From positions 1,426,001 through 1,490,000 of the forward strand of contig NZ_JACIBV010000001.1 of NCBI RefSeq assembly GCF_014195505.1: DNA of 64,000 bases, given 5' to 3'. A program made the translations under genes and the position numbers. The notes below the pieces were generated by a model. The model did not search any database, was not told where the DNA came from, and saw only the letters and a list, made by a program, of their open reading frames with translations. The DNA comes from Nonomuraea dietziae (lineage in GTDB: Bacteria > Actinomycetota > Actinomycetes > Streptosporangiales > Streptosporangiaceae). Positions 12,090 through 60,796 of this stretch are shown piece by piece (position 1 is the first letter of the stretch; each line of letters opens with the position of its first letter).

Positions 12090-13417
12090 GACGCGGCGAC
12101 GCCCTGCTCCGCCAGGATCTCGGCGAGCTTGGTGTCGAGCTTCTGCAGCTCCGCCTTCAGATCCAGGCTGCAGTCCGCGACCAGGGCGTTGACGGTCTCC
12201 GCCGTGGTCTGCCGCACCGGCGTCCAGTTGGGCAGCGACGGGGCGTAGTGGCCGGAGGCCTGGTAGATCTCGGCGAAGGTCTTCCAGCGGGGATCGGGGC
12301 GCACCTGGCTGATGTCGACGGACTTGTTGACGGGCAGCTGGACGATGTAGGCGGTGTCACCCTCCATGCCGACCTTCTGGCCCTCCGCCGAGGTCGCGAA
12401 GGCGGCGAAGGCGTCCTGCGCGGCGTTGTTGGGCGAGCCGGCCATCAGGTAGATCGCGCCGCCCTCGGCGAGCACGTCGGCGTTCTTGGCGCCCTTGGGC
12501 ATGGGCACGACCTCGTACTTGTCCTTGCCGAGCGACTTGTCGTAACGGGGAAGCAGGTAGGGACCGACGACGTACATGCCGGTCTTGCCGGCTTCGAACG
12601 TCTCGTTGGTCGGCGGGGTGTCCATCGTGACGGCGCCGGGCTGGATGACCTTGTCCTTGCAGCCGAGGTCGCGGAACCACTGCATGGCCGCGGTGGACTC
12701 GGGGGTGGACATGGCCGGCTTGAACGTGCCGCCGCCCGCGTCGGCGACGAAGTCGCCACCGGCGGCCCAGAGGAAGTTGGAGAAGTACCACGACGCGTAG
12801 CCGCGCTTGGTCGACAGCGGCGCCGCCAGCCCGTAGGTGTCGTCCTTGCCGTTGCCGTCGGGGTCCTTCTCGGTGAACGCCTTGGCCATCGCCGTGAGAT
12901 CGGCCCAGCTCTGCGGCGCCTGCAGGCCCAGCTTCTCCCGCCAGTCCTTGCGGATGAGCAGGGCGGTGGCCTGGGCGGAGTACGGGACGCTGTACTGCTT
13001 GCCGTCGATGGCCTTGCCTGAGGCCAGCCCGCGCTCGGTGAGGTCCTTGGCGCTGGCGAGCTTGCTGAGGTCGATCTCCCTCAGCAGGCCCTGGCTCTGC
13101 ATGGTGCCGAGCTGGGTGACGTCGTTCATGACGATGTCGGGCAGGTCCTTCTGGGCGGCCCGCTGCTGCATCTTCGTCTCGAAGTCGTCGAAGATCGCCG
13201 TCACCTTGACCTTGTACCCGGTCGCCTTCTCGAACGCGGCCGCCAGCCTGACCGTGCCCTGTTCACCCGGCCCGCCGGGCGTGGTCCTTGTCCAGAGCTC
13301 GAGCGGAGCCTTGGCGTCCTGCTCAACGTTCGTTCCCGCTGTGCCTGACGAACACCCGGACAGCACCATCATGGAAACCAGCATCCATCGTGTCCTGTGT
13401 GTGGAAACTGTTCTCAT
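12086..13417 (-). CDS. Sugar-binding lipoprotein of an ABC importer
   Basis: 443 residues of the family-1 (MalE-like) solute-binding type. The signal peptide ends in the lipobox VLSGC, with Cys22 as the lipidated residue. Conserved blocks include PLELWTRTTPGG, an AAAFEKATGYKVKV segment and DLPDIVMNDV. It delivers the sugar to the two following permeases and is the first gene of the operon, so the promoter should lie in the 13418-13581 gap shared with the divergent dehydrogenase gene. The exact ligand is unknown. Confidence 0.9.
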   Translation of the reverse strand: MRTVSTHRTRWMLVSMMVLSGCSSGTAGTNVEQDAKAPLELWTRTTPGGPGEQGTVRLAAAFEKATGYKVKVTAIFDDFETKMQQRAAQKDLPDIVMNDVTQLGTMQSQGLLREIDLSKLASAKDLTERGLASGKAIDGKQYSVPYSAQATALLIRKDWREKLGLQAPQSWADLTAMAKAFTEKDPDGNGKDDTYGLAAPLSTKRGYASWYFSNFLWAAGGDFVADAGGGTFKPAMSTPESTAAMQWFRDLGCKDKVIQPGAVTMDTPPTNETFEAGKTGMYVVGPYLLPRYDKSLGKDKYEVVPMPKGAKNADVLAEGGAIYLMAGSPNNAAQDAFAAFATSAEGQKVGMEGDTAYIVQLPVNKSVDISQVRPDPRWKTFAEIYQASGHYAPSLPNWTPVRQTTAETVNALVADCSLDLKAELQKLDTKLAEILAEQGVAAS

Positions 13418-13455
13418 ATGTGGACGACTCCCTCTTCTTGGACGACGTTTTCCGG

Positions 13456-13466
13456 ACCGTAACGGT
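13456..13466. promoter_or_regulatory. Small palindrome in divergent promoter region
   Basis: ACCGT-A-ACGGT, an 11-bp inverted repeat, lies 39 nt before the binding-protein start and 115 nt before the dehydrogenase start. It could be an operator of the carbohydrate locus, perhaps for the nearby AraC protein; there is no direct support beyond position. Confidence 0.3.
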
Positions 13467-13581
13467 GCGTACGTTCACAGGTCAATGCTCCGATGACTAG
13501 AAGCTCACTATTGATACCGATCGATCGTGCGGCAGGATGTCTGGCCATACATCCGATGAAAATGCGATCATGGAGTGAGAG

Positions 13582-14574
13582 ATGACCACAGCCTTGCTGG
13601 TCATGGAGGAACGCCGCCGGTCCGACGTCTACCCGGACGAGGTGCTCAGGGCGCTGGCTGACCTGGTCCGATGGCAGCGTCCGCCGCTGACGCGGGAGCA
13701 GCTGGCGGCCGAGCCCGGCGTCCTGAACGAGGTGGAGCTTCTGCTCACGGGGTGGGGCGCGCCCGTCCTCGACGCCGGCCTGCTGCGCCACGCGCCGCGG
13801 CTGCGCGCGGTGCTGGTGGCCGCGGGCTCCGTGCGCCCGCTGACCACGCCGGAGTTCTGGGCACGGCGGATCCCGATCGTCTCCGCCGCGTCGGCCAACG
13901 CGATCCCGGTGGCGGAGTTCACGCTGGCCCAGATCCTGCTGGCGCTCAAGCAGTTCCACCGGATCTCCCGCGAGATCAAGGAGCGGGGGCGCTATCCGGA
14001 CGCGGTGCGGGTCGCCGGGGCGTACGGGTCGAGGGTGGGGCTGCTCGGCCTCGGCGAGATCGGCCGCCTGGTGGCCTCCCACCTGCGCCGCTTCGACCTC
14101 GACGTGGTCGCCACCGACCCGGTGGCCGATCCCGCGGTCGCGGCGGGGCTCGGCGTGCGCCTGGTTCCGCTCGCAGAGCTCTTCGACAGCTGCGAGGTCG
14201 TCAGCCTCCACGCACCCCTCGTCGAGCAGACCGAGGGGCTGGTCGACGGTGAGCTGCTGGCCAGGCTCCGCACCGGGGCGACGCTCGTCAACACCGCCAG
14301 GGGAGCCGTGGTCGACGAGCCGTCCGTCATCGACGTCCTGCGGCGGCGGCCCGACCTCACCGCGGTTCTCGACGTCACCTGGCCGGAGCCGCCGCCATCG
14401 GGATCCCCGCTGTACGGCCTGCCCAACGTCGTGCTGACGCCGCATCTGGCAGGGGCGATGGGCGCCGAACGCGCCCGGATGGGCGAACTGGTGCTGGAGG
14501 AGGTCCGCCGCCTGCTGGCGGGAGCGCCGCTGCGCCACGCCGTGGACCCCGCCGTGGCGAGCCTGCGAGCGTGA
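13582..14574 (+). CDS. D-isomer-specific 2-hydroxyacid dehydrogenase
   Basis: 330 residues. The NAD-binding fold shows GLLGLGEIGRLV, followed by an acidic residue after VVATDP. The catalytic set is present: Arg in NTARGAVVDE, Glu in WPEPPP and His in LTPHLAG. These enzymes reduce 2-keto acids to D-2-hydroxy acids or reverse this, with phosphoglycerate-, lactate- and glyoxylate-type substrates; the substrate here is not clear. It is divergent from the sugar operon and ends 4 nt before the AraC regulator, so it is probably part of uronate or sugar-acid breakdown controlled with that locus. Confidence 0.88.
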   Translation: MTTALLVMEERRRSDVYPDEVLRALADLVRWQRPPLTREQLAAEPGVLNEVELLLTGWGAPVLDAGLLRHAPRLRAVLVAAGSVRPLTTPEFWARRIPIVSAASANAIPVAEFTLAQILLALKQFHRISREIKERGRYPDAVRVAGAYGSRVGLLGLGEIGRLVASHLRRFDLDVVATDPVADPAVAAGLGVRLVPLAELFDSCEVVSLHAPLVEQTEGLVDGELLARLRTGATLVNTARGAVVDEPSVIDVLRRRPDLTAVLDVTWPEPPPSGSPLYGLPNVVLTPHLAGAMGAERARMGELVLEEVRRLLAGAPLRHAVDPAVASLRA

Positions 14575-14578
14575 CGGC

Positions 14579-15391
14579 GTGGACCCGGCGCTCAGGGAGC
14601 ATCTCCGGCGGCTGGACCTCGACCTGCTCATGGCAGGGCATGCCGACCCCGTCCCCGCCGACTGGGGGCGGTCGGCGCGCAGTGACGGCTACAACCGCTT
14701 TTACCTCATCCTCGACGGCGTCGGGTCGATCTCCTCGGACGGGGTCGAGTACCAGCCGCGGCCCGGCCAGCTCTACTTCCTGCCCGCCGGGTCCGCCCTG
14801 GGCTTCTCCACCTCGCGGGAGCGTCCGCTGCGCAAGTACTGGGCGCACTTCACGGCCACCGTGGGCGAGCACGACCTGGCCACGCTCGTCACGCTGCCCC
14901 GCGTGGTGGAGGTGGCCGAGCTGCCTGCCGTCCAGGAGATGTTCGTGAGGTTGCTGGCGGCGGGCAAGGGGGCCGCGCAGGTGACCGGGCCCCTGCGGCA
15001 GCGCGCGGTCCTCATGGAACTGACCGCCTACCTCGTGGAGCACGCCCCCCTGGGTTCGCTGCGGCCCCTGAGCGAGGGGCCGGGGCGCATTCTCGAATAC
15101 ATCGACGCGCATCTGGACGAGGTGCTCACCGTCGGGCGGCTGGCGGAGGTCTTTCACTACAACCCGACCTACTTCATCACCTACTTCGCCCAGCTCTTCG
15201 GGGTCTCCCCCAACCAGTACATCCGGCAGCTGCGGGTCGAGCGGGTCAAGCAGGCGCTGATCCACTCGGAGCTGCGGATCGAGGAGATCGCGGGGACGGT
15301 CGGATGGGAGGCCTCCTACCTTTCGCGCGTTTTCCGGCAGGTGACGTCGCTGACGCCGACTCAGTACCGGGCCTTGCACCGAGCCTCCTGA
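14579..15391 (+). CDS. AraC-family transcriptional regulator
   Basis: 270 residues from a GTG start directly after the dehydrogenase stop. The N-terminal half is a cupin-like sensor (YNRFYLILDGVGSIS...PGQLYFLPAGS). The C-terminal about 100 residues hold two helix-turn-helix motifs: VGRLAEVFHYNPTYFITYF with GVSPNQYIRQLRVERVKQ, and RIEEIAGTVGWEASYLSRVF with SLTPTQYR. It probably activates the adjacent carbohydrate operons in response to a sugar bound by the cupin. Confidence 0.92.
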   Translation: MDPALREHLRRLDLDLLMAGHADPVPADWGRSARSDGYNRFYLILDGVGSISSDGVEYQPRPGQLYFLPAGSALGFSTSRERPLRKYWAHFTATVGEHDLATLVTLPRVVEVAELPAVQEMFVRLLAAGKGAAQVTGPLRQRAVLMELTAYLVEHAPLGSLRPLSEGPGRILEYIDAHLDEVLTVGRLAEVFHYNPTYFITYFAQLFGVSPNQYIRQLRVERVKQALIHSELRIEEIAGTVGWEASYLSRVFRQVTSLTPTQYRALHRAS

Positions 15392-28261: not shown

Positions 28262-29509
28262 ATGCCGAACGTCGTATTCAGCATCGATCAGTCAATGTCG
28301 ATGCGAGATCAGAAAATACCAGGGCATAACCGATGGCACCCAGACATTCCTGTGGCCGACATGGTGCGCCCTGGGGACGAGTTCCGGGTCGAATGCAGGG
28401 AATGGACCGACGCCCAGATCGGCAACAACGACTCCGCGAACGACGTACGGGACGTCGACCTCAGTGTCGCGCACGTCCTGAGCGGGCCCATCGGTGTGGA
28501 CGGAGCCGAGCCTGGCGACCTCCTGGTCGTCGACATCCTTGATCTCGGTCCTGTTCCACAGCAGGTCGGCGGAGCGCCAGGCCAGGGGTGGGGGTACACC
28601 GGCGTGTTCGCCAAGGCCAACGGCGGTGGATTCCTGACCGACTACTTCCCTGACGCCTACAAGGCGATCTGGGACTTCCACGGCCAGGTCGCCACGTCCC
28701 GCCACCTGCCGGGCGTGCGCTACACCGGCATCACCCACCCCGGGCTGTTCGGCACCGCGCCGTCAGCGGACCTGCTCGCGACCTGGAACCGCAGGGAGCA
28801 GGCTCTCATCGACACGGATCCGCAGAGGGTGCCGCCGCTCGGCCTGCCACCGCTGGCCGAGAACGTCATCTCCGGCACCGCAAGCGGCGAGGTGGCGCAG
28901 CGGATCGCCGCCGAGGGAGCCCGCACGGTTCCCGCGCGGGAGAACGGCGGCAACCACGACATCAAGAACTTCACCCGAGGAGCCAGGGTCTTCTACCCGG
29001 TTCACGTGAAGGACGCCAAGCTTTCCGGAGGTGACCTGCACTTCAGCCAGGGTGACGGAGAGATCACCTTCTGCGGCGCGATCGAGATGGGCGGTTTCAT
29101 CGACTTCCACGTCGACCTCATCAAGGGCGGCATGGAGAAGTACGGTGTCACCACCAACCCGATCTTCATGCCAGGCAACGTCGAGCCGCGTTACTCCGAG
29201 TTCCTCTCCTTCATCGGGATCTCGGTCGACCCCGACACCGACACCAACTACTACCTCGACGCGACGGTGGCCTACCGCAGGGCCTGCCTCAACGCCGTCG
29301 AGTACCTCAAGAAGTGGGGCTACACCGGCGAACAGGCCTACCTGCTCCTCGGCTCGGCCCCGATCGAAGGGCGTGTCAGCGGGATCGTCGACATCCCCAA
29401 CGCATGCTGCTCGCTCTACCTGCCCACCGCGATCTTCGACTTCGACGTACGGCCGACCATGGAGGGGCCGGTCAAGAAGGAGCGCGGGCAGTGCGCGGTG
29501 ACGAGCTGA
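28262..29509 (+). CDS. fmdA: Formamidase (acetamidase/formamidase family)
   Basis: 415 residues, the usual FmdA length. Blocks such as MRDQKIPGHNRWHPDIPVAD, GNNDSANDVRDVDLSVAHVL, ENGGNHDIKN, HFSQGDGEITFCGAIEMGG and NACCSLYLPTAIFDFDVRP are diagnostic of the family. It hydrolyses formamide to formate and ammonia. With the AmiS/UreI-like channel and the FmdB-like zinc ribbon it makes a formamide-use set. The formate produced could feed the formate dehydrogenase encoded 7 kb away, which is inference. Confidence 0.93.
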   Translation: MPNVVFSIDQSMSMRDQKIPGHNRWHPDIPVADMVRPGDEFRVECREWTDAQIGNNDSANDVRDVDLSVAHVLSGPIGVDGAEPGDLLVVDILDLGPVPQQVGGAPGQGWGYTGVFAKANGGGFLTDYFPDAYKAIWDFHGQVATSRHLPGVRYTGITHPGLFGTAPSADLLATWNRREQALIDTDPQRVPPLGLPPLAENVISGTASGEVAQRIAAEGARTVPARENGGNHDIKNFTRGARVFYPVHVKDAKLSGGDLHFSQGDGEITFCGAIEMGGFIDFHVDLIKGGMEKYGVTTNPIFMPGNVEPRYSEFLSFIGISVDPDTDTNYYLDATVAYRRACLNAVEYLKKWGYTGEQAYLLLGSAPIEGRVSGIVDIPNACCSLYLPTAIFDFDVRPTMEGPVKKERGQCAVTS

Positions 29510-30314: not shown

Positions 30315-32138
30315 TCAACGGCAGCGGCGGTGGACCTCGTCCACCCGCTCGGTGATCCCGCTCCGATCGAGGTGTTCCAGCAGCGGCACCGCGACCCTCC
30401 TGCTGGTGTCGAGGGCGCGCCTTGCCTCGCTGACGGTGAAGGGCTGCGGCAGCCGCCTCAGCAGCTCCGCCGCCCTGGCGTCCGCGCCGGGCAGCAGCAC
30501 GACGCCTTCGGCCACGCGCAGCAGGCTCCCCGCCCGTACGGCCGCCGCCACCTCCCGGACGCCCAGCCCCAGCTGGGTCAGCCGCCAGGCCTCCGGCGCC
30601 TGGAAGGGATGGGCGGACAGCTCCGCCCTCAGCCGCTCGACAGCCCTGGCCACCGGCGTGGGCAGCCCGGAAGGCCGGGTGAGGATCCGGCCCTCGGCGA
30701 CCGTGAACGGCGGCCGTACCAGCGCGGCGACCAGCCTCCGGTCGGGCAGGGCGAGCTCGTGCCTGGCCGCTTCGAGCGGCATGCCGGGATCCAGCGGGTG
30801 CTCGGCCGCGTACCGCAGGGCCACCTCGGTCAGTCGCCTGGCCAGCTCCTCCCAATGCTCAGGGCTGGCGTACCAGTCGTCGCAGACCGGGCGGCGACCG
30901 CCCAGCTCCCCCACCATGGCGATCAGGTCGGCCGCTCGCAGCAGCCGATGGAGGCGCAGGGCGGAGGCCGCGTCCGGCGTGGCCGGCTCCAGCCTCGCGG
31001 CGCGCGCCCGCGCCGCGCCCCTGCGGCCGAGCGCCGGCGGGCGCACGTCGAGCACGCTGGCCCCTGCCAGCACCCGCACCTCGCTCCGGTCGCGGCCAGG
31101 GTCGCGCAGCAGCAGCACGTCTCCGAGGTGGAGCGGGAGCGGGGCGGCCAGGCGCAGCCGCACGATGCCGGCGCCGAGCGGCCGGACCTCGCACGCCACC
31201 GCCGCCGACCCGATGTGCGCGGTGAGCCGCCCGGGCAGGCGCCGCTCCTCGCCGCCGTCGCTCCGCTCGCCAGGGCCGCGGCCGGAGTCCCGGAGCGCCC
31301 CGACAGGTGAGATCCGGACGTCGACCAGGTCGGTGGAGGTCCATCTGCCAGGTGTGACCAGGGCCAGGCCGCGTTCGGGAAAGCTGCGGCCCCGCAGGTT
31401 CACCGCGACCCTGGCGACGCCGGTCACCGCGGGCAGTGGCTCCTTGAGGGACTCCAGCGCCCGCACCCGTACCGGCTCGCCGCCGAGCGATAGCTCGTCA
31501 CCCACCGAGATCGTGCCCTCGGGCAGGGTTCCGGTCACGACCGTGCCGCTGCCCGTCACGGTGAACACCCTGTCGATCCACAGCCGGACCGGCGCCTCGG
31601 GATCGGGCGCGGGCAGCCCTGCGACCAGCCGGTCCAGCGCCTCCCTCAGCTCGCCGAGCCCCTGGCCGGTACGCCCGCTCACTCCCACCGCCTCGACGCC
31701 GCCCGCCCCGGCCGCCTCCCCCGCTCCACCCAGCCCGGCGGCGGCCAGGCGGTTCCTTGCCTGCTCGATCGCCGGGGCGGGGTCGGCGAGGTCGGCGCGC
31801 GTCACCGCGAGCAGGCAGTGCCGTACGCCGAGGGCCTCCAGCGCCACCAGGTGCTCCTCGGACTGCGGCATCCAGCCCTCGTCTGCGGCCACCACGAACA
31901 TGACGGCCGGCACGGGGCCCACCCCGGCCAGCATCGTGGCGAGAAACCGCTCGTGGCCGGGAACGTCCACGAAGGCGAGGCGCCGCCCCGAGGGCGAAGT
32001 CGTCCAGGCGTAGCCCAGCTCGATCGTCAGCCCCCGCCGCCGCTCCTCCTCCAGCCGGTCGGGCTCCATCCCGGTGAGCGCCCGCACCAGCGTGGACTTG
32101 CCGTGATCGACGTGACCCGCCGTGGCGACGACGTGCAT
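30315..32138 (-). CDS. selB: Selenocysteine-specific elongation factor SelB
   Basis: 607 residues. The EF-Tu-like GTPase domain shows G1 AGHVDHGKSTL, G3 DVPGHERF and G4 TRAD. Domains II and III follow (TGSGTVVTGTLPEGTISVGD), and the C-terminal about 250 residues contain the winged-helix repeats that bind SECIS RNA. It replaces EF-Tu for Sec-tRNA and recognises the SECIS hairpin. The ATG overlaps the selA stop by 1 nt. G4 reads TRAD rather than NKxD, as is common for SelB. Confidence 0.95.
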   Translation of the reverse strand: MHVVATAGHVDHGKSTLVRALTGMEPDRLEEERRRGLTIELGYAWTTSPSGRRLAFVDVPGHERFLATMLAGVGPVPAVMFVVAADEGWMPQSEEHLVALEALGVRHCLLAVTRADLADPAPAIEQARNRLAAAGLGGAGEAAGAGGVEAVGVSGRTGQGLGELREALDRLVAGLPAPDPEAPVRLWIDRVFTVTGSGTVVTGTLPEGTISVGDELSLGGEPVRVRALESLKEPLPAVTGVARVAVNLRGRSFPERGLALVTPGRWTSTDLVDVRISPVGALRDSGRGPGERSDGGEERRLPGRLTAHIGSAAVACEVRPLGAGIVRLRLAAPLPLHLGDVLLLRDPGRDRSEVRVLAGASVLDVRPPALGRRGAARARAARLEPATPDAASALRLHRLLRAADLIAMVGELGGRRPVCDDWYASPEHWEELARRLTEVALRYAAEHPLDPGMPLEAARHELALPDRRLVAALVRPPFTVAEGRILTRPSGLPTPVARAVERLRAELSAHPFQAPEAWRLTQLGLGVREVAAAVRAGSLLRVAEGVVLLPGADARAAELLRRLPQPFTVSEARRALDTSRRVAVPLLEHLDRSGITERVDEVHRRCR

Positions 32139-33427
32139 CAGCCGCTCGCCTCGAGGATCGCGCGGGCCACATCGCCGTCCCGGTCGCCGGGAACGGTGCG
32201 CAGGTCGAGCAGCAGCCGCCCGCCCTCGATCCGGCCGACGACCGGTGGCTCGCCGGTTCGCAGCGCTACGGCGAGCCGCTCGGGCAGGCTCACGGCGGCG
32301 CTCGGCAGCCTGACGCCGGGCGCTCCCCCGCCCCCCACGGCGGCCTCGCTCGGCACGGCTCGCGCGTCGACTCCCGCACCGGCCAGCGCGCCGGCGAGCG
32401 CCGCGGCCCGGTCGCCGAGCGCCGCCGGATCGGCGTACAACGCCTGTCGGACAGGGACGGCGGGGCCCCTGAGAGTGGCCTCCAGCGCCGCCAGCGTCAG
32501 CTTGTCGACGCGCAGCGCGCGGGCGAGCGGATGCCGTCTGCACCGTTCGACCAGGTCACGGCGGCCGAGGAGGAGCCCCGCCTGCGGACCGCCGAGCAGC
32601 TTGTCGCCGCTGGCGGTCACGAGATCCGCCCCGGCCTCGAGCACGGTCGTCGCGTCCGGCTCGGCGGGCAGCAGCGGCTCGCGGGTGAGCAGGCCGGAGC
32701 CGATGTCGGCCACGACGGGCACGCCGAGCGCGGTCAGCTCCGACACCTCGGCGGAGCCGGTGAAACCCTCGATCAGGAAGTTCGACGGGTGCACCTTGAG
32801 CACGCATCCGGTCTCCGGTCCCACGGCCGCCGCGTAGTCGCGGTAGGAGGTGCGGTTGGTGGTGCCCACTTCGCGCAGCCGCGCCCCTGTGGAGACGAGC
32901 AGGTCGGGGATGCGGAACCCGTCGCCGATCTCCACCAGCTCGCCGCGGCTGATCACGATCTCCCGGCCCGCGGCGAGCACGGTGGCCGCCAGGACGAGCG
33001 CGGCGGCGTTGTTGTTGACGACGTGCACGTCCTCGGCGGCCGGCACGGCGCGCGTGAGCGCGTCCAGCGCGCCCCGCCCGCGACGGGCCCTGGCGCCGGT
33101 CTGCAGGTCGAACTCCACGTCGGCGGCGCCGGCCGCGGCCGCCATCGACTCGACCGCCGCGGGCGACAGCGGCGCCCTGCCGAGGTTGGTGTGGATCAGC
33201 ACGCCGGTCGCGTTGATCACCGCGCGCAGGCTCGCGGTTTGTGACGGGAGCGCCGCCACGGCCGCGTCCGCGACCTGCTCGGGGCCGATCTCGCCGAGTC
33301 GCGCGCGCTGCTGGGCCCGCGCCACCGCGTCCTTGACGACCGACCTGCCCAGCCGCCCGCCCGCCGCGACCAGCCGCGGGTCGGCGAGCACGGCGTCGGT
33401 ACGTGGCACGTGCCTTCGTGGATCCAC
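32138..33427 (-). CDS. selA: L-seryl-tRNA(Sec) selenium transferase SelA
   Basis: 429 residues from GTG 33427 (DPRRHVPRTDAVLADPRLVA). The PLP-dependent fold shows the Schiff-base lysine in TASGDKLLGGPQAGLLLG, the NATGVLIHTNLGRAPLS block and VNNNAAALVL. It converts Ser-tRNA(Sec) to Sec-tRNA(Sec) with selenophosphate from SelD. It lies between tRNA-Sec and selB in one minus-strand unit. The GTG is preceded only by a weak GAAGAG. Confidence 0.95.
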   Translation of the reverse strand: MDPRRHVPRTDAVLADPRLVAAGGRLGRSVVKDAVARAQQRARLGEIGPEQVADAAVAALPSQTASLRAVINATGVLIHTNLGRAPLSPAAVESMAAAAGAADVEFDLQTGARARRGRGALDALTRAVPAAEDVHVVNNNAAALVLAATVLAAGREIVISRGELVEIGDGFRIPDLLVSTGARLREVGTTNRTSYRDYAAAVGPETGCVLKVHPSNFLIEGFTGSAEVSELTALGVPVVADIGSGLLTREPLLPAEPDATTVLEAGADLVTASGDKLLGGPQAGLLLGRRDLVERCRRHPLARALRVDKLTLAALEATLRGPAVPVRQALYADPAALGDRAAALAGALAGAGVDARAVPSEAAVGGGGAPGVRLPSAAVSLPERLAVALRTGEPPVVGRIEGGRLLLDLRTVPGDRDGDVARAILEASG

Positions 33428-33442
33428 TCTTCGAAAATAGAG

Positions 33443-33535
33443 CGGAGGCGGACGGGAATCGAACCCGCCAGGCCGAGGACCTCGGCCTCGTCGGTTTTGA
33501 AGACCGCGGGGGCCACCAGGCGCCCACACGCCTCC
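33443..33535 (-). tRNA. selC: tRNA-Sec (anticodon UCA)
   Basis: Read on the minus strand, the 5' GGAGGCG pairs with 3' CGCCTCC, with discriminator G. The D-stem is long (GGGC...GCCC), the anticodon stem-loop GGTCTTCAAAACC holds UCA, and an extended variable arm is formed by GAGGCCGAG and CTCGGCCT. The T arm is GCGGGTTCGATTCCCGT. The long acceptor/T stack, long D stem and large variable arm are specific for tRNA-Sec. No CCA is encoded. It sits just upstream of selA. Confidence 0.95.
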
Positions 33536-33542
33536 AAGGGAG

Positions 33543-33571
33543 AACATACTCGCAGGTGGGTAGGGGCTGAA
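33543..33571 (-). promoter_or_regulatory. Candidate selC-selA-selB promoter
   Basis: On the minus strand, TTCAGC (33566-33571) and TATGTT (33543-33548) are separated by 17 nt, and TATGTT ends 7 nt before the tRNA 5' end. The -10 is good and the -35 is weak. Confidence 0.4.
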
Positions 33572-33606
33572 GCGGCACACACCGTCGCGATCCACCTGAG
33601 GACGCC

Positions 33607-34626
33607 ATGACATTCAGCACCCGGCAGGGGCAGGGCCCGATCCGGCTGACGCAGTACGCGCACGGGGGCGGCTGCGCCTGCAAGATCCCGCCCGGCGAGC
33701 TGGAGGCCGTCGTGGCGGGGCTGGTCGGCCGGCCCTTGGCCTCCCCCGCCGGCGAGTTGCTCATCGGTCTCGACGACGGGGACGACGCCGCGGTGGTCCG
33801 CGTCGACGGCGGCCGGGCGATCGTGGCCACCGCCGACTTCTTCACGCCCGTGGTGGACGACCCCTACGACTGGGGCCGCATCGCGGGGGCCAATGCCCTG
33901 TCGGACGTCTACGCGGTGGGCGGGGAGCCGCTGGTGGCGGTCAACCTGCTCGGCTGGCCCAGGCAGAGGCTGCCGCTGGAGCTGGCGAAGGAGGTGCTGC
34001 GCGGCGGCCTGGACGCGGCGCGGGCCGCGGGCTGCCACGTCGCGGGGGGCCACAGCGTCGACGACCCGGAGCCGAAGTACGGCATGGCCGTCACCGGCCT
34101 GGCCGATCCCGAGCGGCTGCTGCGCATCGGCGGCGGCAGGCCCGGGCTGCCGATCAGCCTCACCAAGCCGCTGGGCATCGGGGTGCTCAACACCCGGCAC
34201 AAGGCGACCGGCGAGGTGTTCCCGCAGGCGGTCGCCGCGATGACCGCGCTGAACCGCGACGCCTCCAGGGCCGCGCTGGCCGCCGGAGCGGTGTGCGCCA
34301 CGGACGTGACCGGGTTCGGCCTGCTGGGCCACCTCTACAAGCTGGCCAGGGCGAGCGGGGTCACGGCCGTGGTCGACGTGGCGGCCGTGCCGTACCTGGA
34401 AGGGGCCCGTGAGGCGGCGCGCGACGGCCACGTCAGCGGCGGCACCCGACGCAACCTCGACTGGGTGCGTCCCTGCCTCGACCCCGGCGGCTTCGGCGAG
34501 GAGGACCTGCTGCTGCTCGCCGACGCCCAGACCTCCGGCGGCCTCCTGGTGGCAGGCGAGATCCCCGGCGCGCCGGTCATCGGAGAGCTCGTCCCGCTCT
34601 CCGGCTCTCACCTGCGACTGCGCTGA
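33607..34626 (+). CDS. selD: Selenide, water dikinase SelD
   Basis: 339 residues. The active-site segment is GGGCACKIPPG, with Cys23, Cys25 and Lys26; the Cys17/Lys20 pair of the E. coli enzyme corresponds to Cys23/Lys26. ATP-binding blocks include GDDAAVVRVDGG, ANALSDVYAVGGEPL and GGHSVDDPEPKYG, and CATDVTGFGLLGH follows. It makes selenophosphate from selenide and ATP. The catalytic position is an ordinary Cys, not Sec. It is divergent from selC-selA-selB. Confidence 0.95.
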   Translation: MTFSTRQGQGPIRLTQYAHGGGCACKIPPGELEAVVAGLVGRPLASPAGELLIGLDDGDDAAVVRVDGGRAIVATADFFTPVVDDPYDWGRIAGANALSDVYAVGGEPLVAVNLLGWPRQRLPLELAKEVLRGGLDAARAAGCHVAGGHSVDDPEPKYGMAVTGLADPERLLRIGGGRPGLPISLTKPLGIGVLNTRHKATGEVFPQAVAAMTALNRDASRAALAAGAVCATDVTGFGLLGHLYKLARASGVTAVVDVAAVPYLEGAREAARDGHVSGGTRRNLDWVRPCLDPGGFGEEDLLLLADAQTSGGLLVAGEIPGAPVIGELVPLSGSHLRLR

Positions 34627-34643
34627 ACGCCGGAGGCGGAGGG

Positions 34644-35561
34644 TCAGGCGGGTCGCTCGCCGTCGAGGCGCTGTCTCTGGGGCACGACCGTGTACTTCGG
34701 GTCGGCGGCCGAGGCTCGGCCCGCCGCCAGGATGCCGAAGCGGGTGCACAGGGCGCCTGCCGTGAGGGCGAGACCGGACAGCGCGGTGACCGTACGGCTG
34801 CGCCCGGCGACCGCGGCGAGCAGGCCGCCGCCGGCCGTCAGCGCGCGGGCCGAGCGCATCAGGCGGCCCGCCCTCCCCTGCCGGTACGGCTCGGCTGCCT
34901 GCCCCAGCCTGCGCTCCATCACCACGCCCGACACGGTCTCCATGGCGGCCCCGAGCACCGCCACCGCACGGGCGGGCCCCGCCTCCGCACGGGGCGTCGC
35001 CAGCATGCCCAACGCCCCCGCGCTGGCCAGCGCGCTCCCCGCGAACAGGAACGGCAGCTCCCTGTACGCCTCGTGCCAGGCGGGCACGGCGGTGTCAGCG
35101 ACCAGGACGGCGGTGTAGGTGGCGGTCAGCGGCCCTGTCACACCCGTGGCGAGGACCGCCGCGTCACCCACGACGGGCAGGCTCCCGGTCAGCTCGGAGG
35201 AGGCGGCGACCGCCGACAGCCCGCCCTGGGCGGCCAGGATCCATGAGCCGACACTCATCGGCGAGGTCGGTTTGAACACCCGCAGCATGTTGAGGAACCG
35301 TTCGGGCCTGCCCAGCTCGGCGGCGAGGAGGCCGGCGCCGGCGGCCGCCCCGAGCGCCGCCGCGACCCGCGTGGTGCGCGCGAGCCGGTGGTGCCCGGTG
35401 AACCCCGCCACCACGGCCATCATCGACGAAACCCCGGACAGACCTCCCAGGTAGAGATATGTCGGCATGTGGGGTTCGTGCCAGATCGGAGCCTTGATCA
35501 CCGGCCGCCCGTAGTATGAGCGGAACTCGGCCTCCGGCACCATCGACCGCTCCCGCGTCAC
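34644..35561 (-). CDS. NrfD-type membrane subunit of formate dehydrogenase
   Basis: 305 residues with about eight predicted membrane helices. The N-terminal YLYLGGLSGVSSMMA block and LGRPERFLNMLRVFKPTSPM are typical of NrfD/PsrC quinone-reacting subunits. It overlaps the iron-sulfur subunit gene by 4 nt. It probably passes electrons from the dehydrogenase to the quinone pool and anchors the complex. Confidence 0.88.
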   Translation of the reverse strand: MTRERSMVPEAEFRSYYGRPVIKAPIWHEPHMPTYLYLGGLSGVSSMMAVVAGFTGHHRLARTTRVAAALGAAAGAGLLAAELGRPERFLNMLRVFKPTSPMSVGSWILAAQGGLSAVAASSELTGSLPVVGDAAVLATGVTGPLTATYTAVLVADTAVPAWHEAYRELPFLFAGSALASAGALGMLATPRAEAGPARAVAVLGAAMETVSGVVMERRLGQAAEPYRQGRAGRLMRSARALTAGGGLLAAVAGRSRTVTALSGLALTAGALCTRFGILAAGRASAADPKYTVVPQRQRLDGERPA

Positions 35562-36373
35562 CGCCGCCCCCCGTCACGGAATCCCGCGAAGCCTCCCGCG
35601 AAGGCCACCGCCACCGCCCCCGCCACGGACAGCGCCGCGGCCCCCGCCCAGCGCCACATGGACGGCAGGTCGCGGGTGGTCACGACCGGATCGGGGGGCA
35701 GGCCGTACACCTCGGGCTCGTCCAGCAGCAGGAAGAAGGCCCCCGCGCCGCCCACCCCGTCGTCCGGGCTCTCTCCGTACAGCCGGGCCTCCGAGCGCCC
35801 GTCGGCGTGCAGGCGCTCCAGCCGGTCCTCGGCCCGCTCCCTGAGCTCGTCGAGCGGGCCGAACTGGATCGAGTCGGTCGGGCAGGCCTTGGCGCACGCC
35901 GGTTCGAGGCCCCCGCGCTGCCGGTCGTAGCACATCGTGCACTTCCAGGCCCGCCCGTCGCCCTCCCTGCGGTCGATCACCCCGAACGGGCAGGCCGGCA
36001 CGCAGTAGCCGCAGCCGTTGCAGATGTCCTCCTGCACCACCACCGTGCCGAACTCGGTCCGGAACAGCGCACCGGTCGGGCACACGTCCAGGCACGCGGC
36101 GTGCGTGCAGTGCTTGCACACGTCCGACGACATCAGCCAGCGATCCACGCCGCTGTCGCCCTCGTCCTCCTTCATCCGCACGGTGCGCGTCTGCTCGATG
36201 AAGGCCACGTGTCGCCAGGTGCTCGCCCCGAGCTGCCCGGTGTTGTCGTAGGAGGTCGCCTCGAACACGAACCCGTCGTCGGGCAGCTGGTTCCACTCCT
36301 TGCAGGCCACCTCGCAGGCCTTGCAGCCGATGCAGACGCTGGTGTCGGTGAAGAAGCCCATCCGCTCAGTCAT
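35558..36373 (-). CDS. Formate dehydrogenase iron-sulfur (beta) subunit
   Basis: 271 residues. Four ferredoxin-type motifs are present: CIGCKACEVACKE, CKHCTHAACLDVCPTGAL, CNGCGYCVPACPFGVI and CTMCYDRQ with ACAKACPTDSI. They give four [4Fe-4S] clusters as in FdnH/FdhB. The C-terminus has one hydrophobic helix (WRWAGAAALSVAGAVAVAFA) as membrane anchor. The start overlaps the catalytic subunit gene by 8 nt and the end overlaps the NrfD gene by 4 nt. Confidence 0.93.
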   Translation of the reverse strand: MTERMGFFTDTSVCIGCKACEVACKEWNQLPDDGFVFEATSYDNTGQLGASTWRHVAFIEQTRTVRMKEDEGDSGVDRWLMSSDVCKHCTHAACLDVCPTGALFRTEFGTVVVQEDICNGCGYCVPACPFGVIDRREGDGRAWKCTMCYDRQRGGLEPACAKACPTDSIQFGPLDELRERAEDRLERLHADGRSEARLYGESPDDGVGGAGAFFLLLDEPEVYGLPPDPVVTTRDLPSMWRWAGAAALSVAGAVAVAFAGGFAGFRDGGRR

Positions 36374-39300
36374 GGCGGTACACCTCCAGCAGGTCGAGCG
36401 CCGCCCGGCCCCTCGGCCGCCTTCCGGGACGTACGTCGCAGGTCACGGCCTTGCTCTCCTGGATGTAGACGTTCGGGTCGAGCACCAGCGGCAGCAGGTC
36501 GTTGGTGACGTCGCCGGTCACCAGGCCGCCGCCGCCCCACCCCCAGTGGTAGGGCAGGCCGACCTGATGGACCGTCCTGCCCTGGATCCGCAGCGGCCGG
36601 ACCCTGCCGGTGACCAGCACCCTGGCCTCGATCACGGTACGGCTGGTCACGATCGTGGCCCAGCCGCCGTTGACCAGCCCCAGCTCGGCGGCGAGCTCGG
36701 GGGACACCTCGCAGAACAGCTCGGGCTGCAGCTCGGCGAGGTAGGCCAGCGGCCGGCTCATGGCGCCCGCCGTGTGGTGCTCGGTGAGCCTGTAGGTGGT
36801 CAGCACGTACGGGAAGCGCGGCGACCCAGGCGGGTTGTAGGGGCTTTCCCGACGCGCGTAGATCCGGCGCGCGGGGTTGGACTGCCGGCCGTACAGCGGG
36901 TTGCGGACCGGCGACTCGTGCGGCTCGTAGTGGGCGGGCAGCGGCCCGTCGGCCAGACCCGCCGGCACGTACAGCCAGCCCTTCCCGTCGGACTGCATGA
37001 TGAACGGGTCGGTCCCAGCCAGCGCGGCCTCGGCCCTGGCGCCTTCGGGCGGCACGTAGTCCGGCGGCTTGTTCCGCTCGAAGTCGGGCACGTCGTGCCC
37101 GGTCCACTCGCCGCGCTCCGCGTCCCACCAGACGTAGGCCTTGCGCTCGCTCCACGGGCGGCCCTCGGGGTCGGCGGAGGCCCTGTTGTAGAGAATCCGT
37201 CTGTTGGCCGGCCAGGCCCAGCCCCATTCGGGCGCCACGGGCGTCTGCTCCCTCCCTGGCCTGCGCCGGGCGGCGTGGTTGACCTCGCCCGCGTAGACGC
37301 CGCAGTAGATCCAGCAGCCGCACGCGGTGGACCCGTCGGGCCTGAGCTGGGTGGAGGAAGACAGCGCCCGCCCGTCGGGGCCCACACCGTTGATCTCGCG
37401 GAGCACGGCCGCCGCCGAGGGGTCCCGGTGCTCGCCCTCCTCCGGGTAGTCCCATGTCAGCTCGCGCAGCGGCCGGTCGATCTCGTCCCCGGTCAGCCGC
37501 TCGCGCAGGAGCCTGCCGAGGTGGTAGTAGAACCACAGGTCGCTGCGGCAGTCGCCGACCGGGTCGAGCGCCTTCTCCCGCCACTGCAGGAGCCGCTGCG
37601 TGTTGGTGAAGGTGCCCTCCTTCTCCACGTGGCTCGCGGCGGGAAGGAAGAACACCTCGGTGGCGATGTCCTCCGTGCGCATCTCCCCGGTCTCGAGCTC
37701 GGGACCGTCCTTCCAGAACGTGGCCGTCTCCACCAGCGTCAGGTCGCGCACCACCAGCCAGTCGAGGTTGGCCAGGCCGAGGCGCTGGGCGCGGCCGCCC
37801 GAGGAGCCGACCGCGGGGTTCTCCCCCACCACGAAGTAGCCCTTCACCGTCCCGTCGATCTGGCCCATCACGGTGGTGTAGTGGCCGTGGTCGCCGGTCA
37901 GGCGCGGCAGGTGGCCGAAGCAGAAGTCGTTCTCCTCGGTGGCCGCCTCTCCCCACCAGGCCTTGAGCAGGCTCACCAGGTAGGAGCGCCGGTTGCCCCA
38001 GAAGCCGGTCTCGCCGCCCTCGCGTTCCAGATAGTCGTCCAGGTTCTCGTGCCGGTGGGCGTGGGGCATGGCCAGGTAGCCCGGCAGGATGTTGAACAGC
38101 GTCGGGATGTCGGTCGAGCCCTGAATGCTCGCGTGCCCGCGCAGCGCCAGGATGCCGCCGCCGGGACGGCCCATGTTGCCCAGCAGCAGCTGGAGGATCG
38201 CGGCGGTGCGGATGTACTGCGCGCCCACCGTGTGCTGGGTCCAGCCGACGGAGTACACCCACGCGGTGGTGCGCTCCCTGCCGGAGTTGGCGGTGATCGC
38301 GTCGGCGAGTTCGGCGAAGTCCTCGGGCGGGATGCCGCAGAGCCGCTCCACCAGCTCCGGGGTGTAGCGGGCGAAGTGCCGCCTGAGGATCTGGTAGACG
38401 CAGCGCGGGTGGCGCAGCGTCGGGTCCTTCGGCGGGCTGGGGTGCGCGGCGGCGCCGCCGGAGCCGTAGCGGTCCGCCCCCGCGGCCTTGGCGTGGTGCA
38501 GGCCGCCCTCCAGTGTCTCGCCCGGTGCCTGCTCGCCCGTGCTCTCGTACGACCAGCTGCTCGGGTCGTACGTACGCGTCTCGGGATCGAAGCCGGAGAA
38601 CAGCCCGTCGAGGTCCTCGGTGTCCCTGAAGTCCTCGGAGACGAGGGCGGCGGCGTTGGTGTAGGCCAGCACGTACTCGCGGAAGTCCAGCTCGTTGGCG
38701 AGGACGTGGTTGATCAGGGCGCCGAGCAGCACGATGTCGCTACCGGCGCGGATCGGCAGGTGGCGGTCGGCCAGCGCGCTGGTCCTGGTGAAGCGCGGGT
38801 CCACATGGAAGACCTTCGCTCCCCGCGCCCTGGCCTCCACCACCCACTGGAAGCCCACCGGATGACATTCGGCCATGTTGGAGCCCTGGATGACGATGCA
38901 GTCCGCACCCGCCAGGTCCTGCTGGAAGGTCGTCGCGCCGCCACGCCCGAAGCTGGTCCCCAGACCGGGGACGGTGGAGGAGTGTCAAATACGCGCCTGG
39001 TTCTCCACCTGGATCGCGCCCAGGGCGGTGTACAGCTTCTTCATCAGGTAGTTCTCTTCGTTGTCGAGCGTCGCCCCGCCCAGGCCGGCGATGCCCAGCG
39101 TGCGGCGCACGACCTTGCCCTCATGGGTCTGCTGCCAGGTGTCCTTTCGCGTCCTCAGCACCCGCTCGGCGATCATCTCCATCGCGGCGCCGAGGTCGAG
39201 CCGCTCCCACTCCGTGCCGTACGGCCTGCGGTACAGCACGTGGGTCTGGCGGCCCGGATGGGTGACGAGCTGTTTGCTGGCCGAGCCCTTGGGGCACAGC

Positions 39301-39554
39301 CGGCCACGTGAGATGGGCGAGTCGGGGTCGCCCTCGATCTGGCTGACCCGGCCGTCCTTGACGTAGACGAGCTGGCCGCAGCCGACCGCGCAGTAGGGGC
39401 AGACCGAGCGGGCGACGCTGTCGGCCTCTTCGGTGCGCGGCCTCAGGGCGTCGGTACGCGCCGAGCGCGCGGCGTCGCTCCTGCCGTCCTCTCCCTTGAG
39501 CTGCCGGAGCACCGGCCACCGGGAGAACCACCTCCCACCTGCCACAATGCGCAT
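36366..39554 (-). CDS. Selenocysteine-containing formate dehydrogenase catalytic subunit
   Basis: 1,062 residues if the in-frame TGA at 38985-38987 is read as Sec190 (ATG 39554; GTG 39545 is an alternative start with better spacing). Cys52, Cys55, Cys59 and Cys87 (SVCPYCAVGCG and RGRLCPKG) bind a [4Fe-4S] cluster. The segment NQARI-U-HSSTV aligns with the ARV-U-HGPTV of E. coli formate dehydrogenases, and downstream GSNMAECHPVGFQW, KVFHVDPRFTRT and the C-terminal molybdopterin domain follow in the same frame. It oxidises formate to CO2 at a molybdenum or tungsten bis-MGD centre. No Tat motif is seen, so the complex probably faces the cytoplasm. Ordinary gene finding splits it at the TGA into parts at 38988-39554 and 36366-38876. 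Confidence 0.95.
38956..38987 (-). promoter_or_regulatory. SECIS element with its UGA-Sec codon
   Basis: On the minus strand, UGA (38985-38987) is followed after 12 nt by GUCCCC-GGUCU-GGGGAC (38956-38972), a perfect 6-bp stem with the loop GGUCU. The loop and distance match the apical hairpin of the E. coli fdhF SECIS (GGUUGC-AGGUCU-GCACC region). SelB should bind here. Confidence 0.88.
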
Positions 39555-59857: not shown

Positions 59858-60796
59858 TCAGCGGCTCACGGCGGTCTGCCGTTCAATACGCGACAGCTTC
59901 TCGGGATTGCGCACGTGGTAGGCGCCGGTGACGTAGCCGTTCTCCACTCGCACCGCCAGCACACCGTCGATCTCACCGTTGACTCGGACGAGCAGCCCCG
60001 GGCCGCCATTGATCTGCACCAGCTCGACCGACCTTTCCGCGTCGCGCTTCCACCAGCCGACGGCCAGCAAGCGAGCAACGTTGCCGGCCCCCACAACGGG
60101 CCGCAGCAGGGCATGTTTGACTCCGCCGCCGTCGCTCAGGGCGACGACGTCCGGCGCGAGGATGTCGAGCAGGCCCTGCAGTTCGCCGGTTTCGACCGCT
60201 CGTTGGAAAGCCTGGAGGGCGGCTCGATGCTCGGCCGGCGAGCCGGTGCCGCGTGGCCGGCGCGCGGCCACGTGTGCCCGAGCCCGATAGGCGATCTGAC
60301 GGACCGCGGCCGGGCTCTTGTCGACGGCCTCGGCGATCTCGTCGTAATCCAGATCGAAGACCTCGCGCAGCACGAACACCGCCCGCTCAATCGGCTGGAG
60401 CGTCTCCAGCACCAGCAGCATCGCCATCGAGACGCTGTCGGCCAACTCCACGTCCTCGGCCACGTCAGGCGCGGTCAGCAACGGCTCGGGCAGCCACGGT
60501 CCGACGTAGGACTCCTTACGCCGGCCGAGCGCACGCAGCCGGTCCAGCGCCTGCCGTGTGACGATCCGCACCAGGTAGGCACGCTCCTCCCGCACGGTGT
60601 CAAGGTCGACGTCGACCCATCGCAGCCAGGTCTCCTGAAGGATGTCTTCGGCGTCGGCGGCCGAACCGAGCATCTCGTAGGCGACGGTGAACAGCAGGTT
60701 GCGATGGGCGACGAACGCCTCGGTAGCGGAGTCGACGCGATCGGCACGGTCGAGCGGTCCCGGTGTGTCCGTCGTTCGCTCGCTGCGCTCGCTCAT
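59858..60796 (-). CDS. SigJ-type ECF sigma factor
   Basis: 312 residues from ATG 60796. Region 2 is FTVAYEMLGSAADAEDILQE and region 4 is QPIERAVFVLREVFDLDYDE with IAEAVDKSPAAVRQIAYRAR. The C-terminal about 120 residues are a SnoaL-like domain (FQRAVETGELQGLLDILAPD onward), typical of the SigJ/ECF41 group, where it modulates activity. ECF41 factors are usually beside the carboxymuconolactone-decarboxylase/oxidoreductase genes they control, matching the divergent genes here. Confidence 0.93.
   Translation of the reverse strand: MSERSERTTDTPGPLDRADRVDSATEAFVAHRNLLFTVAYEMLGSAADAEDILQETWLRWVDVDLDTVREERAYLVRIVTRQALDRLRALGRRKESYVGPWLPEPLLTAPDVAEDVELADSVSMAMLLVLETLQPIERAVFVLREVFDLDYDEIAEAVDKSPAAVRQIAYRARAHVAARRPRGTGSPAEHRAALQAFQRAVETGELQGLLDILAPDVVALSDGGGVKHALLRPVVGAGNVARLLAVGWWKRDAERSVELVQINGGPGLLVRVNGEIDGVLAVRVENGYVTGAYHVRNPEKLSRIERQTAVSR

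Follow-up and report, generated by a model that had tools for sequence, protein, structure and literature searches.

A 64,000-nucleotide stretch of the Nonomuraea dietziae genome (10.2 Mb in 3 contigs), hereafter the window, very probably carries a selenocysteine (Sec) cassette that serves one formate dehydrogenase, in whose alpha subunit FdhA the in-frame UGA at codon 190 would be read as Sec. The block from selB to fdhA spans 30315-39554 (9.2 kb) and holds fdhB, an NrfD-type gene, selD, tRNA-Sec and selA between them. Its features, including the putative selenocysteine insertion sequence (SECIS), are as follows, in window coordinates:

36366..39554 (stop codon included), minus strand: fdhA, formate dehydrogenase alpha subunit, predicted to contain Sec (NF041513, Pfam and PDB matches)
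38985..38987, minus strand: in-frame UGA, codon 190 of fdhA, predicted to be read as Sec (opposite X of 1h0h)
38956..38972, minus strand: putative SECIS hairpin GUCCCC-GGUCU-GGGGAC, starting 12 nucleotides past the UGA
35558..36373, minus strand: fdhB, iron-sulfur beta subunit (TIGR01582, Fer4_11)
34644..35561, minus strand: fdhC, NrfD-type integral membrane protein, probably the subunit on the quinone side (PF03916, PF14589)
33607..34626, plus strand: selD, selenophosphate synthetase (TIGR00476)
33442..33535, minus strand: selC, tRNA-Sec with anticodon UCA (ARAGORN; Rfam RF01852, 74.6 bits)
32138..33418, minus strand: selA, selenocysteine synthase (TIGR00474, PF03841)
30315..32144, minus strand: selB, Sec-specific elongation factor with a C-terminal winged helix (TIGR00475, PF09107)

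The fdhA open reading frame (ORF) encodes 1062 residues plus a stop codon, with codon 190 as its sole internal TGA, and the frame remains open to the stop at 36366. The protein joined across the UGA matched the NCBIfam family NF041513 over residues 9-1061 with 1941.9 bits (cut-off 1400). Molybdopterin-enzyme domains (PF00384, Molybdopterin; PF01568, Molydop_binding) and an N-terminal Fe4S4 domain (PF04879, Molybdop_Fe4S4) were found in Pfam. The best PDB sequence matches in a phmmer search were 1h0h and 1kqf, and codon 190 fell on the X of ARI-X-HSATV in 1h0h, a tungsten-containing formate dehydrogenase from D. gigas in which X is selenocysteine. An earlier note on this DNA had placed a single TGA at NQARI-U-HSSTV with both halves of the protein in one frame, a 6-bp hairpin with loop GGUCU 12 nucleotides past the UGA, and selA, selB, selD and tRNA-Sec in the same 9-kb block. 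All of these were recovered at the positions listed above, the sel genes by ARAGORN, Rfam and NCBIfam, and the alignment to known FdhA that it had proposed agreed with its reading.

If the UGA were instead a true stop, whether through a pseudogene, an assembly error or the presence of two genes, the downstream ORF would be a relic or a separate protein. An ATG at 38876 does start an 836-residue ORF of the FdhA C-terminal part, and the C-terminal piece by itself reached 1511.6 bits against NF041513, already above the cut-off. Such a stop, however, would cut the Fe4S4 domain from the rest of the enzyme, and the comparison with relatives makes it hardly credible. For this comparison, 200 genomes of the same order were searched, 141 of which had an FdhA match at E 1e-100; further named loci were the 80 top matches out of at least 586, supplemented with 100 additional stretches. 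Some rows represented one genome from two collections, so distinct sequences were used. In the 211 rows covering codon 190 (L188 and L190 fall short of it), the codon was TGA in 127, TAG in 15, TGC in 65 and TGT in 4, and nothing else was found. The median ratio of nonsynonymous to synonymous substitution rates over 47 loci was 0.227 upstream and 0.237 downstream of the UGA; purifying selection is equal on either side. The recurrence of UGA at the same codon, this equality and the retention of the hairpin with compensatory changes all speak against termination and for the reading of codon 190 as Sec.

A hairpin in one sequence is weak evidence, and it is the comparison across relatives that carries the case. 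When the same peptide was recoded at random with synonymous codons, a 6-bp stem arose at the site in 24% of the recodings, and one with a SECIS-type loop in 1.6%, a class that also admitted any loop with GT at bases two and three. Three TGC rows from one unrelated paralogue (L008, L011, L012) and three rows of a distant class (L220-L222) were left out of the hairpin comparison, leaving 139 UGA/UAG rows (75 distinct) and 66 Cys rows (65 distinct). Each of the 75 distinct UGA/UAG rows had all six stem pairs, versus none of the 65 distinct Cys rows, which had 3 to 5 pairs. Shuffling codons within columns of the UGA/UAG rows gave a mean of 51.5 and a maximum of 60 full stems in 2000 trials, compared with the 75 observed; hairpin conservation across relatives is far beyond chance. 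The loops of the 75 rows were GGTCT (65), AGTCT (9) and AGTTT (1), and GGTCT also stood at the loop place in 3 of the 65 Cys rows. Pro was encoded in all 75 UGA/UAG rows where Cys rows show Ala, Val, Thr or Ser, and Ser codons were TCN in 72 of these 75 and AGC or AGT in 63 of the 65 Cys rows. In 58 distinct sequences, among them the distant class, all 348 cells were paired, with a covariation score of 0.316 against 0.127 for shuffled alignments (0 of 500 shuffles as high). Homologues with Cys at this column and no hairpin, which the earlier note had named as a possible refutation, were indeed found. They do not refute Sec, because the two features go together: rows with Cys lack the hairpin and rows with UGA have it.

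Several observations weigh against a Sec-containing FdhA. The 39-nucleotide fold had a z-score of -0.16, with 79 of 200 shuffles at least as stable, even as its minimum free energy (MFE) structure was the hairpin; the 50-nucleotide fold had a z-score of 0.33, and another structure was its MFE. Two of the five covariation measures were unremarkable, namely the two-sided pair changes (2, equalled in 78 of 500 shuffles) and the further pair types (8, equalled in 48 of 500). The SelB stretch scored 233 in the six-frame search, below the cut-off of 242.25, which the whole protein passes with 249.6, and the best family of FdhB, TIGR01582, reached 182.5 bits, below its cut-off of 334.7. A Sec-containing FdhA with a SECIS element, as the earlier note had proposed, is nonetheless supported by the conservation of the hairpin in relatives and by the adjoining Sec machinery.

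That machinery bears on another alternative, in which the UGA is read through, not (only) as Sec: Cys or Trp might be inserted, or translation might mostly terminate when selenium is scarce. Cys is a natural alternative at codon 190, occurring in 69 of the 211 rows (3 from the unrelated paralogue), and in a related system the supply of selenium was limiting for the removal of formate (PMC7176365). Against such readthrough, which we regard as very improbable, tRNA-Sec, SelA, SelB and SelD adjoin fdhA in the window, where the NCBIfam scores were 430.9 for SelA (cut-off 267.9), 249.6 for SelB (242.25) and 371.5 for SelD (125). SelD carries GGGCACK near its N-terminus, that is, Cys instead of Sec. 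Furthermore, wherever a genome has the UGA-type fdhA (77 genomes; codon inspected in 59, the other 18 assigned by a count of one TGA), a tRNA-Sec of at least 60 bits was present, versus 11 of the 64 genomes lacking that type, a group in which two genomes hold fragments short of the codon (G183, G189) and two also hold a distant UGA-containing FdhA (G050, G186). One genome, G030, has its TGA elsewhere in the gene and TGC at codon 190 (L207). Among the 59 genomes without an FdhA match at E 1e-100, 17 had tRNA-Sec. In total, tRNA-Sec was present in 105 of the 200 genomes at 60 bits or more and in 113 at the Rfam cut-off of 47 bits; the statement that selenoproteins are uncommon in actinobacteria, made in the earlier note, therefore fails for this order.

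The mechanism suggested by these genes, for the most part established knowledge on bacterial Sec insertion and molybdenum or tungsten formate dehydrogenases, would run as follows. SelD would make selenophosphate and SelA would convert Ser-tRNA-Sec into Sec-tRNA-Sec. In E. coli, the winged-helix domain of SelB binds the SECIS; here, SelB would bind the GGUCU hairpin and bring Sec-tRNA to the UGA, yielding the full-length 1062-residue FdhA with Sec190 as a presumed molybdenum or tungsten ligand. Formate would be oxidized to CO2, with electrons passing via FdhB to the NrfD subunit and on to the quinone pool. The C-terminal end of FdhB resembles a membrane helix by eye, and FdhC matched PF03916 with 43.4 bits and PF14589 with 41.3 bits in Pfam, with no match in NCBIfam. 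No twin-arginine motif was seen at the FdhA N-terminus when the translation was read by eye, and the active site thus probably faces the cytoplasm.

A model of the FdhA-type hairpin, from which other SECIS types could escape, gave 7 matches in the genome at E values up to 10. The fdhA site had an E value of 7.2e-12 and the next match 0.031, so that the fdhA hairpin was the sole strong match in genome and window alike. Six candidate sites were rejected or found unconvincing as selenoproteins. Two (L225, L226) begin with UGA, but the GC content at third codon positions of their frames was 0.34-0.41; three (L227, L228, L229) have no UGA at the start; and one (L224), with 80 and 86 codons around its UGA, showed no SECIS-type loop and lies antisense to an ORF.

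Codon 190 also varied among relatives in ways other than UGA. The hairpin was retained in all 15 UAG rows, which came from Blastococcus, Modestobacter and Geodermatophilus (L069, L071, L073, L074, L077, L083, L090-L092, L094, L101, L108, L111, L112 and L115). Sec codons were reportedly the subject of a study by Mukai et al. in 2016. PMC5330540 describes tRNA-Sec with anticodon CUA together with TAG-Sec formate dehydrogenases in Geodermatophilaceae. UGU at codon 190 occurred without a SECIS-type hairpin in four FdhA genes (L132, L146, L171 and L184, from G157, G074, G130 and G136, respectively); it is probably plain Cys, since G136 alone among these genomes has a tRNA-Sec whose anticodon is ACA. 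A second class of FdhA that contains UGA, distant from the first, was observed in L220, L221, L222 and L231 (from 9839, plus strand), with 43-44% identity in the matched part and the loop AGUUU; the protein in L231 begins MDVSRRQFLSIG, a twin-arginine-like signal. A distant paralogue on contig C2 has an open frame with TAG.

Two further Sec-related systems were observed in relatives. The first is a roughly 240-residue membrane protein that bears the motif SGS-x-U-S-x-NSA, found in 47 of the 200 genomes, with an in-frame TGA in 52 of 53 matches; the single match without TGA begins behind that column. All 47 genomes had tRNA-Sec at 60 bits or more. Among the 28 genomes in which tRNA-Sec occurs without any UGA-FdhA of the window's family, 24 encode the protein. 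The UGA was placed in the motif in 28 of 30 retrieved loci (the pattern missed L310 and L311), and in those 28 a hairpin whose loop is GGUCU or GGUCC lay 24-26 nucleotides past it. The loci include L237:14027-14749 (plus strand), L239:4060-4803 (plus), L245:11529-12236 (minus), L249:5742-6470 (minus) and L282-L309. Nothing scored above cut-off in Pfam (4 proteins), and no match was found in NCBIfam (3 proteins) or PDB. No such family appears in Table 1 of PMC13188914, judged by name and motif in the part of that source available. Its sequence features make the protein, for which the window's genome gave no match, a candidate for an undescribed family of membrane selenoproteins.

The second is a tRNA-Sec with anticodon ACA, which would read UGU, located near selB in 6 of the 200 genomes (for example L232:10487-10580, L236:10592-10684 and L240:9034-9127, all plus strand). 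In the same six genomes, a DUF6073 gene lies less than about 2 kb away (for example L236:9164-9895, minus strand), and the sole Cys codon in its matched region is UGU, followed by 33 nearly invariant nucleotides. The MFE structure of this stretch differs from the small hairpin sought. A Cys at the same column, encoded by TGC in 4 and TGT in 2, is also found in six additional DUF6073 genes. Because five of the six genomes also hold a UCA-type tRNA-Sec, two Sec codons per cell are possible; UGU-Sec is known from Aeromonas salmonicida (PMC10778597). Strong tRNA-Sec genes, two or three per genome and apart from each other, were seen in G050, G186, G184, G147, G165, G159, G135, G154, G180, G195, G100, G029 and G092, in several of which the copies lie near separate selB genes. 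In G004, G151 and G169, a strong tRNA-Sec was present, yet no UGA-FdhA of the window's family, membrane-protein match or ACA-type tRNA-Sec was found, and no selenoprotein was detected.

Whether the fdhA-linked tRNA-Sec and SelB are a cassette dedicated to the fdhA SECIS and insulated from the membrane-protein-linked and UGU-reading systems of relatives, was considered with a tree of 45 SelBs. The SelBs of the window and five other fdhA-linked Streptosporangiaceae formed one clade (6 rows, support 100/100), those adjoining the membrane protein a separate one (4 rows, 100/100), and those adjoining the ACA-type tRNA-Sec another (3 rows, 98/96). Clade and system do not correspond one to one, however, because fdhA-linked SelBs of other actinobacteria sit in different parts of the tree, and the membrane-protein clade does not include the SelBs sampled from G015, G034 and G184, although these genomes also encode that protein. 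The window's genome, moreover, shows one Sec system only. Insulation of this kind is thus doubtful; if true, two or three Sec codes would operate side by side in members of this family, and a separate SelB, SECIS and tRNA would serve each of them.

In the neighbourhood of fdhA, the 64 named loci of more than 20 kb contained fdhB in 55, the NrfD gene in 55, selD in 37, selA in 35 and selB in 32. None of the five was found in L043, L044 and L122. L043 comes from Nonomuraea sp. NEAU-A123, the closest named relative among the loci listed (92% identity in the best segment), and a gene resembling a serine recombinase (13246-14853, plus strand) lies directly behind its fdhA, as if an integrative element had inserted there. 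In the window, a formamidase gene (FmdA, 28262-29509; NF045496, 660.7 bits) near the sel genes is a possible source of formate; it and three other window neighbours were found in none of the same 64 loci, which cover about 10 kb on each side of fdhA. A tRNA-Cys with anticodon ACA predicted by ARAGORN at 60058-60135 had no Rfam support at the gathering score and is probably false.

The window offers a compact actinobacterial case of recoding at a stop codon, and related genomes hold the same enzyme in UGA-Sec, UAG and Cys versions. This set is useful for asking how selenium benefits the enzyme and adds no new mechanism. In the library searched, the one paper found on selenoproteins and Nonomuraea concerns peroxidases, and this fdhA seemingly goes untreated there. 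In comparison with known systems, FdhA belongs to the family NF041513 (formate_DH_Act), matched over its full length as given above, and shares its alpha-subunit family with E. coli FdnGHI (1kqf; TIGR01553, 917.1 versus a cut-off of 814.2; phmmer, 697.4 bits). E. coli FdnGHI has a cytochrome b subunit and a twin-arginine translocation signal; the third gene of the window, in contrast, matches only two NrfD families in Pfam (E 0.001) and not the cytochrome b gamma subunit, and its FdhA lacks the twin-arginine motif by eye. Table 1 of PMC13188914 counts FdhA among the selenoprotein families verified by experiment, and the accompanying text calls it the most widely distributed in bacteria. For Actinomycetospora chiangmaiensis, the accessible part of PMC7176365 describes a similar cluster and a removal of formate that depends on selenium: the membrane-bound FDH1 of strain DSM 45062 likewise combines a Sec-containing FdhA with a beta and a gamma subunit, SelA and SelB, whereas SelD is listed there without the FDH1 label, and the word NrfD is absent from that text for the gamma subunit. 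Similarly, the fdnG/fdxH and sel region of Corynebacterium aurimucosum (PMC2830990) clusters a UGA-containing formate dehydrogenase gene with genes for making and inserting Sec. Actinobacterial Sec-FdhA loci with sel genes are thus already described in these two sources, and the Nonomuraea dietziae gene adds one case to them.

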